5,579 bases of DNA, taken from Actinomycetota bacterium (GTDB lineage Bacteria; Actinomycetota; UBA4738). This document shows, piece by piece, positions 1,373-2,758 of the stretch. The position numbers were made by a program, and so were the translations under genes. Under the pieces are notes generated by a model, which saw only the letters and a list, made by a program, of their open reading frames with translations, ran no database searches and was not told where the DNA came from. Where the stretch lies: assembly GCA_013816105.1 (NCBI GenBank), contig JACDEY010000016.1:1-5579 (forward strand). Direction: 5' to 3'. Every line of letters begins with the position of its first letter. Within the stretch, counting starts at the first letter, position 1.

Positions 1373-2758
1373 ATGCGCCTTCGCAGCGGCGTCCCTGCGG
1401 CGCTTGCCGGAGCCTCCGGCCGGGCCTACGATGACTTCGTGAAACCGTTCACAAAGTCCCCGGCACCGGCCGGGGACCCTCACCATGGGGGCTCCGCCCG
1501 GCGACGCAGGAGGAGCGCGACGGCACCCACATCTGACACGGACGTCCTGGTCGTCGGAGCAGGTCCATCGGGCTCCTCGGCCGCCTACCACCTCGCCCGG
1601 CAGGGCATCGACGTCCTGCTGGTCGACAAGGCCACCTTCCCCCGCGAGAAGGTGTGTGGAGACGGCCTCACCCCGCGGGGCGTCTCGGCGCTTCGGCGGA
1701 TGGGGGTGGATCCGGAGGAGCCCGGTTTCACGCCCGTTGAGGCTCTCCGGACCTACGGGACGGACGGCACGGTCATCACGCTGCGCTGGCCCGACACGAG
1801 GTCGTTCCCGCCCCTCGGCGTTGTTCGCACCAGATTCGACCTGGACGACCTCCTGGTCAACCGGGCGATCAAGGCCGGTGCCAGGTTTCGGGAGGGCGTG
1901 GAGGTGTCGGGGCCGCTCGACGACCGGGGCTGGGTCTGTGGAGCGGAGGTCACCGCCGGGGGCGAGGTTGGCCGGGTTCGGGCCCGGTATGTGGTGGCCG
2001 CGGACGGCGCATCCAGCCGCTTCGCCGCCCGGCGGGGCGTCTCCAGGATCGAGGGGAGGCCGGTGGCGGCCGCCGCCCGCCGCTACTACCGCAGCCCCCG
2101 TGCTCAGGAGCCCGTACTCGAATCGTTCCTGAGCCTGCAGGAGCGCTCCGGCCTCCTCGCCGGATACGGCTGGGTCTTTCCCGTCGGCGACGGGCTCTAC
2201 AACGTGGGGGTGGGCGTTCTGCGGTCACCGAAGCACTCGAAGGAGATGACCGCTCGCAAGGTCATGGCCCGGTTCGTGCGTCAGCTTCCCCCAGAGTGGC
2301 GGATGGACGAGTCAAACGCCGTCGGGCCGCTCCTATCGGGACCGATCCCCATGGGCATCAACCGGAATCCGCTGGCAGTTCCGGGAATGCTCGTCGTGGG
2401 CGACGCCGGCGGCATCGTCAACCCGTTCAACGGCGAGGGCATCGCGTACGCGATCGAGTCGGGAGAGCTGGCCGCCGAGCTGCTCGGGGACGCGCTCGCG
2501 CGCAACCGGCCGGCCATCGCGCACATGTATCCCTCGCTAATCCGTGAGCGCTACGAGCGATACTTCCTCATCGGTCGGAACTGGCTGAAGCTCCTCGGCA
2601 ACCCGACGTTCATGCGGTTCGCGGTGAAACACGGGATCCCTCGCGAGCGGCTCATGCGCTTCGCCCTCCGGTTCATGGCGAACCTGAGTGACGGAAGGGG
2701 CGGGTCGCGGCAGGACAAGCTGATGCACGCGATCCTGTCCCTGGCGCCGGAGCGGTAG
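1373..2758 (+). CDS. Geranylgeranyl reductase family FAD-dependent oxidoreductase (MenJ-like)
   Basis: A FAD-dependent enzyme that saturates isoprenoid double bonds; in mycobacteria the related MenJ reduces the menaquinone side chain, and the position directly before nuo suggests the same here (inference). From the ATG at 1373, the Rossmann motif DVLVVGAGPSGSSAAYHLA has GAGPSG at residues 62-67; the family block FPREKVCGDGLTPRGV has CGDG at 95-98; the second FAD motif, GDAGG at 343-347, continues into NPFNGEG (350-356). A charged tail with several aromatic residues follows. Members of about 400-430 residues are usual; this frame gives 461 because of about 50 basic, low-complexity residues before the Rossmann fold. 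The ATG at 1373 is the only ATG with an upstream SD (GGAGG at 1364-1368, 4-base spacing) and is given as the outer bound. However, a promoter and operator appear to lie inside that extension, so GTG at 1439 (leaderless) or ACG at 1520 may be the real start. Its stop touches the nuoA start. Confidence 0.85.
   Translation: MRLRSGVPAALAGASGRAYDDFVKPFTKSPAPAGDPHHGGSARRRRRSATAPTSDTDVLVVGAGPSGSSAAYHLARQGIDVLLVDKATFPREKVCGDGLTPRGVSALRRMGVDPEEPGFTPVEALRTYGTDGTVITLRWPDTRSFPPLGVVRTRFDLDDLLVNRAIKAGARFREGVEVSGPLDDRGWVCGAEVTAGGEVGRVRARYVVAADGASSRFAARRGVSRIEGRPVAAAARRYYRSPRAQEPVLESFLSLQERSGLLAGYGWVFPVGDGLYNVGVGVLRSPKHSKEMTARKVMARFVRQLPPEWRMDESNAVGPLLSGPIPMGINRNPLAVPGMLVVGDAGGIVNPFNGEGIAYAIESGELAAELLGDALARNRPAIAHMYPSLIRERYERYFLIGRNWLKLLGNPTFMRFAVKHGIPRERLMRFALRFMANLSDGRGGSRQDKLMHAILSLAPER
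1404..1432 (+). promoter_or_regulatory. Predicted housekeeping-sigma promoter for the reductase-nuo operon
   Basis: A -35-like TTGCCG (1404-1409) and a -10-like TACGAT (1427-1432) are separated by exactly 17 bases. Both fit the loose actinobacterial TTGACn / TAnnnT pattern. A start about 7 bases beyond the -10 falls near 1439, inside the Rex-like palindrome. The promoter sits 60 bases after the stop of the preceding gene, where an operon promoter would be expected. This is a by-eye prediction; in GC-rich DNA such pairs also occur by chance, but the match with the operator position strengthens it. Confidence 0.5.
1406..1420. repeat. Perfect 7-bp inverted repeat in the promoter spacer
   Basis: GCCGGAG (1406-1412), one central C, then CTCCGGC (1414-1420): a perfect 15-base palindrome with an odd centre. 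It overlaps the predicted -35 and fills part of the -35/-10 spacer, where a regulator site could act. The loop is too small for the full stem to form in RNA, so a DNA-level site is the likelier role if it has one. Such short GC palindromes can be chance in this base composition. Confidence 0.3.
1433..1458. promoter_or_regulatory. Rex-type operator (NADH/NAD+ redox sensor site)
   Basis: The core 1437-1454 reads TCGTGAA-ACCG-TTCACAA. The published Rex consensus is TTGTGAA-N4-TTCACAA, so 13 of 14 defined positions match; the only deviation is C at 1438. The symmetry continues outward: 1433-1443 and 1448-1458 form 11-base arms with 10 matched positions. It is AT-richer than its surroundings and lies over the predicted transcription start at about 1439, a classic repressor position. 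Rex is a homodimeric winged-helix repressor with a Rossmann domain; it binds such sites when NADH is low and leaves them when NADH rises. The downstream operon encodes NADH dehydrogenase, which fits this logic. A Rex gene is not in the window. Other dyad-binding regulators cannot be excluded. Confidence 0.68.
1456..1477 (+). promoter_or_regulatory. Perfect 9-bp GC hairpin in the predicted leader
   Basis: GTCCCCGGC (1456-1464), loop ACCG (1465-1468), GCCGGGGAC (1469-1477): nine consecutive Watson-Crick pairs with a four-base loop. It abuts the Rex-like palindrome and shares its last three bases. If transcription starts near 1439, the hairpin lies about 17-38 bases into the message. No T-run follows, so a canonical intrinsic terminator is not supported. 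A 5' stabilising structure, an attenuator, a U-less terminator for the preceding gene, or chance in GC-rich DNA are the options. Confidence 0.4.
1508..1522 (+). promoter_or_regulatory. Strong Shine-Dalgarno before an in-frame ACG codon, candidate true start of the reductase
   Basis: AGGAGG at 1508-1513 (extending to AGGAGGAG) is followed by 6 bases and then ACG at 1520-1522, in frame with the reductase. Translation from here would read (M)APTSDTDVLVVGAGPSG, the usual length and composition ahead of a FAD-binding Rossmann motif in this family, giving 412 residues. ACG is a very rare initiator; a true ATG changed by mutation or by a base-calling error would look exactly like this. Confidence 0.4.

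Follow-up and report, generated by a model that had tools for sequence, protein, structure and literature searches.

The window analyzed here is a stretch of 5,579 nucleotides (G000:C212:1-5579), part of a 10,086-base contig of the source genome G000, a metagenome-assembled genome (MAG) of 276 contigs with a completeness of 61.75%. Most of it is taken up by a run of genes on the forward strand: a flavoprotein of the geranylgeranyl-reductase family (positions 1520 to 2758, with an apparent ACG start at 1520 and the stop codon at 2756 to 2758), nuoA (2759 to 3214), nuoB (3217 to 3735), nuoC (3736 to 4233), and nuoD (4238 to 5473). The complex I genes were recovered above the cutoffs of PF00507 for nuoA (124.6 bits; cutoff, 23.3), TIGR01957 for nuoB (233.3 bits; cutoff, 142.7), TIGR01961 for nuoC (134.6 bits; cutoff, 122.45), and TIGR01962 for nuoD (573.2 bits; cutoff, 459.35), while the best NCBIfam NuoA model gave nuoA a score of 151.2, slightly under its cutoff of 155. 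nuoA begins on the very next base after the reductase stop codon, so a single transcript is likely. The genes on the other side of the intergenic region encode a polyprenyl synthase (to position 883) and then a PPOX-type protein (stop by 1343), the latter scoring above the cutoff of Pfam PNPOx_N and below the cutoffs of all four NCBIfam models listed. By eye, the 884 to 951 region of the PPOX-type gene offers no obvious ATG near the conserved N terminus, the candidate starts being CTG at 909 and GTG at 951.

The intergenic region contains an inverted repeat at positions 1433 to 1458 (unstranded), GACTTCGTGAA-ACCG-TTCACAAAGTC, which we predict to be a Rex-type operator. Its 11-nt arms pair at 10 of 11 positions around a four-base center, and its core (1437 to 1454; TCGTGAAACCGTTCACAA) differs from the Rex consensus TTGTGAA-N4-TTCACAA at a single one of the 14 defined positions. 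Both counts agree with those in an initial annotation of this DNA, made from the sequence alone, which had proposed a Rex-like operator here. The core is the sole match to the consensus with up to three mismatches in the window, and none of 200 dinucleotide shuffles produced a match. The palindrome had further been described as occupying bases 1 to 26 after a -10-like hexamer, and it does begin, at 1433, on the base directly following TACGAT (1427 to 1432, forward strand). This predicted -10 element is preceded, at a distance of 17 bases, by a -35-like hexamer, TTGCCG (1404 to 1409, forward strand). A consensus sigma-70 scan requiring at least 9 of 12 matches reported no promoter between 1300 and 1600, and hence position and conservation are what the promoter call rests on. 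When the sites that precede the reductase in G000 and its relatives were considered together, 26 of 31 had a TANNNT beginning within 14 bases on the 5′ side (a raw count taken without a shuffle control). Since the predicted operator lies just downstream of the predicted -10 box, at the head of the reductase-nuoABCD unit, Rex bound there would block transcription of that unit.

Conservation of the palindrome among relatives

To place the palindrome in a comparative setting, we used a reductase search across 61 genomes (G000 included), which recovered a match in 55; the best 30 loci were fetched and supplemented with the copies G006b and G003, giving 32 loci. The reductase is followed by nuoA in 29 of these, and 26 of the 29, the window among them, have a site with up to two mismatches before the reductase. 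In G060 the site lies between the reductase and nuoA, the only such case among the 29, and two further loci (G041 and G048) yielded no site with up to two mismatches. G041 is without a match to the Rex-type domain PF06971 and G048 has one; a three-mismatch match between the reductase and nuoA of G048 was left out of the count. In G003 the contig ends inside the reductase and the site is present, and no site was found at two loci with distant reductases and no neighboring nuoA (L022 and L028). A scan of named genomes for the reductase returned three loci, all of them from MAGs.

One close comparison is with the sister genome G001, which belongs to the same genus and is 93% identical to G000 at the DNA level over 4.5 kb. 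Both promoter-like hexamers are identical in the two genomes, and the operators differ by one base of the N4 center and one inserted base (25 of 27 columns identical). The region 1344 to 1403 aligns at only 38 of 72 columns, and the leader behind the operator aligns at 62 of 64; because the leader is also well kept, this pair by itself does not single out the operator. The wider comparison does: the leader is unlike in G006 and G002, yet the operator is alike there, and across the relatives the distance between site and gene varies while the arms stay. The alignment of the intergenic region across relatives, which had been put forward as a check on the operator, thus finds both arms kept.

These alignments also bear on two other ways in which the symmetry might have arisen. 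The first holds that the palindrome is coding sequence, with the reductase starting at ATG 1373 behind GGAGGAG and the symmetry due to chance; the reading frame of the window is indeed open between 1004 and 2758, and both ATG 1373 and GTG 1439 fall within it. In G001, however, the kept site has one extra base behind it, and an in-frame stop lies 35 codons ahead of the conserved region, the intervening stretch offering no ATG, GTG, or TTG. This 1-nt insertion and in-frame stop behind a kept site, together with the differing spacing between site and gene among relatives, rule the coding reading out, and we accord it practically no probability. The second concerns a perfect 9-bp inverted repeat at 1456 to 1477, GTCCCCGGC-ACCG-GCCGGGGAC, which extends over the right end of the operator. 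Its arms (1456 to 1464 and 1469 to 1477) form a stem that folds in the leader and could in principle act as a hairpin at the RNA level. The fold has a z-score of -1.59, with 14 of 200 shuffles folding as well, there is no terminator-like T run, the window contains no Rfam match, and it is the leader that changes in G006 and G002 while the operator stays alike. We therefore consider an RNA-level role highly improbable.

A different question is which regulator recognizes the site. Sites of CRP/FNR-family regulators have the core TGTGA-N6-TCACA in common with Rex sites, and a regulator of that family might bind in place of Rex. We searched the 300 bases before the reductase in all 32 loci with this core alone fixed, allowing up to one mismatch, and obtained 31 sites in 27 loci, against 0.115 on mononucleotide shuffles. 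Although the two types of site are identical in this core, the Rex-like flanks are kept as well in the 27 distinct sites recovered, the inner A in 25 and the inner T, outer T, and outer A in all 27, while the four-base center varies. A CRP/FNR site would show the core without such retention of the Rex-type inner and outer bases, which here are kept in 25 to 27 of 27. With two further lines of evidence given below, this makes binding by a CRP/FNR-family regulator improbable, and we retain Rex as the predicted ligand of the site.

Four loci (L007, L008, L013, and L018) have tandem sites before the reductase, each with at most one mismatch. Their starts are 30 to 36 bases apart, and each has a TANNNT within 14 bases on its 5′ side. 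This arrangement suggests either two promoters or cooperative binding.

rex genes, further sites, and the proposed control

The initial annotation had called for a rex gene in the genome. The PF06971 domain was found in 54 of the 61 genomes searched, including the same-genus G001, where rex adjoins hemC; the G001 protein scores 343.7 bits with the NCBIfam Rex model (cutoff, 226) and aligns with Rex proteins of solved structure, two of which (3ikv and 2dt5) have the stretch VRKDLSY-x-GSYGTRGVGY in common with it. In the 61.75% complete assembly of G000 itself, a PF06971 family search found no rex, and neither did a search with the G001 Rex protein as the query (a protein search run without a positive control). 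The 4.5-kb rex region of G001, used as a DNA query against G000, gave no match at all, whereas a 4.5-kb control region matched over its whole length. The lack of a rex hit in G000 is thus best read as missing assembly, and with the sister's rex region wholly missing from an assembly this incomplete, it neither refutes nor proves control by Rex. The expectation of a rex gene therefore holds for the sister, beside hemC, and not for the assembled part of G000.

On a broader scale, we drew an even sample of 198 genomes from the phylum and compared the occurrence of the exact motif with that of PF06971 (E ≤ 1e-3). The exact motif is present in 40 of the 198 genomes and a control pattern in none. 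It occurs in 39 of 155 genomes with the domain versus 1 of 43 without it, the exception being G000 itself (Fisher P = 4e-4, kinship ignored). When weak PF06971 matches are counted as absent, among them that of G135, which has a match only at 4.5e-4, the figures become 38 of 152 versus 2 of 46 (P = 1.4e-3, kinship again ignored). That the motif follows the Rex-type domain argues against a CRP/FNR-family regulator. The motif is not universal among genomes with the domain, as 116 of the 155 have no exact site. We scanned 25 rex-type loci in 24 genomes and found 4 with a neighboring site of up to two mismatches, so by this criterion autoregulation is not general here. One of these four, in G047, has the site TTGTGCACGCGTTCACAA, identical to the rex site footprinted in Streptomyces avermitilis, as given in the part of that report available (PMC5355995).

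We then examined where else the motif occurs. Among the 61 genomes, the exact motif has 46 copies in 27 genomes, against none for the backward control pattern. Classified by position and gene content, these copies comprise (i) 20 before the reductase, (ii) 1 before nuoA (that of G060), (iii) 10 in a ccdA/ferredoxin divergon, (iv) 9 beside an ATP synthase operon, and (v) 6 others. For the third class, Pfam matches to DsbD_TM, Fer4, and COX15-CtaA confirmed the divergon of G000 and a Fer4 match that of G049, and the remaining eight were assigned by sequence likeness. For the fourth, ATP synthase subunit a was confirmed at 7 of 9 sites, with G005 and G008 classified by gene order and likeness only; of six AtpI-like proteins encoded beside these sites, five had no Pfam match and one scored under the cutoff.

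G000 contains three sites with up to two mismatches, versus one match for the control pattern: that of the window and one each on contigs C270 and C168. The C270 site is an exact palindrome, TTGTGAAGCCGTTCACAA (L037 1501 to 1518; G000:C270:1890-1907), situated between ccdA-ctaA and a divergent pair coding for a ferredoxin and a cytochrome-b-like protein, and this divergon site is kept in nine other genomes. The C168 site, TTGAGAATCCGTTCACAA (L038 1501 to 1518; G000:C168:1883-1900), stands before a second complex I operon, 22 bases ahead of its nuoA start. Further copies of the motif in the genome, a search for which had been suggested as a check, are thus present. With the pattern loosened to up to three mismatches, there were 18 matches on one strand of G000 and 21 on the other, versus 4 and 7 for the control, which indicates that chance matches abound at this level. 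As judged from their sequences, the genes marked by the other sites match known Rex targets, resembling the Rex regulon of Streptomyces, and this resemblance likewise counts against a CRP/FNR-family regulator.

The original proposal, in which the reductase-nuoABCD unit is headed by a Rex-type operator, is thus supported by its position, by the retention of its arms across relatives, by the presence of rex in the lineage, and by other sites at genes known as Rex targets. We interpret 1433 to 1458 as very probably a Rex operator that blocks the reductase-nuoABCD unit and is released as NADH/NAD+ rises. Rex would bind over the start region of the predicted promoter (1404 to 1432) and prevent transcription; on a rise in NADH/NAD+, it would take up NADH and leave the site; and its release would yield more complex I and more reductase, by which NADH would be oxidized. 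The broader claim of the initial annotation, that the organism uses NADH/NAD+ to set the expression of complex I and the reductase together, gains from the operator kept at the head of the unit and from the rex of the lineage, and is neither refuted nor proved by the failure to find rex in G000.

The reductase and its apparent ACG start

The reductase scores 244.1 bits with the general geranylgeranyl reductase family model TIGR02032 (cutoff, 158.8) and 29.2 bits with PF22578 (cutoff, 27). One of its two best NCBIfam models is that of MenJ (NF045655), whose curated cutoff of 700 is far above the 244.3 bits obtained. Its nearest solved relative by sequence is 3oz2, a digeranylgeranylglycerophospholipid (archaeal-lipid-type) reductase. 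The earlier description of the enzyme as probably a menaquinone reductase is therefore not established, as the cutoff of the general family model was passed and that of MenJ was not.

Whether Rex control would be directed at the reductase at all is a separate matter. In a variant compatible with the above interpretation, Rex acts, complex I alone is the regulated product, and the reductase is a passenger, in which case the saturation of the quinone tail would not be meant to follow NADH. The reductase could be such a passenger because the G060 site lies after it and before nuoA. In the same direction, the second nuo operon of G000, on C168, has its site ahead of nuoA and no reductase in the space between them, and the two fetched reductases without a neighboring nuoA (L022 and L028, both distant) are without a site. 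Against this, the site precedes the reductase in 26 of 29 loci, and in the window the reductase directly abuts nuoA. We regard the chances of the passenger variant as even.

The reductase of the window appears to begin with an unusual codon. Seven copies of its family were read, those of G000 (the window), G001, G002, G003, G006 (twice), and G007 (the loci other than the window being L003, L004, L006, L054, L057, and L058), and in all seven the conserved region is preceded, at a distance of 6 to 8 codons, by an ACG (1520 to 1522 in the window). As one G006 copy (G006a) and that of G007 are alike in the reductase leader, fewer than seven of these are independent. In six copies, no ATG, GTG, or TTG separates the ACG from an in-frame stop 13 to 35 codons upstream; for the remaining copy, that of the window, the nearest such codon is a GTG inside the operator. 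Most copies have a purine-rich stretch before the ACG (AGGAGGAG in the window), which is poor in G003. In a second family (f3), represented by 13 relatives from the order, 12 members have a GTG that precedes the conserved region by 24 to 36 nt, and the thirteenth, L013, has a TTG, a GTG, and an ATG within 27 nt. Standard starts are likewise at hand for nuoA, nuoB, and nuoC of G001, G002, G006a, G006b, and G007, and nuoA, nuoB, nuoC, and nuoD of the window start with GTG or ATG.

The simplest reading of these sequences is that reductases of the window family start at ACG, though frameshifting or another near-cognate start may be used instead. The papers that we looked into for ACG as a bacterial start had 0 occurrences of "ACG." If the ACG start is real, gene prediction under table 11, with the starts ATG, GTG, and TTG, would not find where the gene truly begins. 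ACG is a weak start codon. We tentatively raise the possibility, which we judge to be rather less likely than its converse, that in this actinobacterial lineage one promoter set by the NADH sensor Rex serves complex I together with a prenyl (quinone-tail) reductase, and that in the window's own family the conserved weak ACG start would keep the output of the reductase lower than that of complex I from their shared transcript.

Relation to known Rex regulons

According to the portion of the S. avermitilis study available (PMC5355995), Rex of that organism represses nuoA1-N1, atpIBEFHAGDC, rex-hem, and cyd through TTGTGAANNNNTTCACAA, as established by electrophoretic mobility shift assay (EMSA), ChIP, and footprinting. 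The sites described here are like those operators in their consensus and in having complex I and ATP synthase among the apparent targets. The mode of action in S. avermitilis, repression at promoter sites with release by NADH, was supported there by measured binding, and the same mode is what we propose for the window from its sequence. The S. avermitilis nuoA1 site has two mismatches and covers -42 to -16, around the -35 box; the operator of the window instead comes after the predicted -10 box and has a reductase as the first gene behind it. In Streptomyces coelicolor, the Rex regulon includes nuo, atp, hem, cytochrome c biogenesis, cyd, and hppA genes, as far as the accessible part of the source goes (PMC8981147), and the nuo, ATP synthase, and ccdA/ferredoxin sites found here are in line with it. 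The regulon list in that part of the source names no geranylgeranyl reductase, the word "geranylgeranyl" having 0 occurrences.

Actinomyces oris is known to have a ggr gene within a nuo locus (PMC5478893, of which a part was available), and Rex goes unmentioned for that locus among the matches listed. Literature searches on Rex with nuo or with geranylgeranyl/menaquinone reductase returned no Rex-controlled unit headed by a reductase among the matches listed, and such a unit may still have been published. The coupling of quinone-tail saturation to NADH sensing had been presented as the new point of this locus. Rex control of nuo is already on record for Streptomyces (PMC5355995, in the part available), and what remains new is the reductase as the usual first gene. 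Hence, this is an extension of a known control circuit and not a new circuit, to which the reductase in that position is the addition.

The findings extend the Rex regulon of complex I, ATP synthase, and cytochrome biogenesis to a lineage of actinobacteria for which we found three named records, all of them metagenome assembled. In this lineage, a prenyl reductase is the usual first gene of the predicted Rex-controlled complex I unit. If menaquinone is what this reductase saturates, then both the pump and the quinone that it uses would be set by the cellular redox state.
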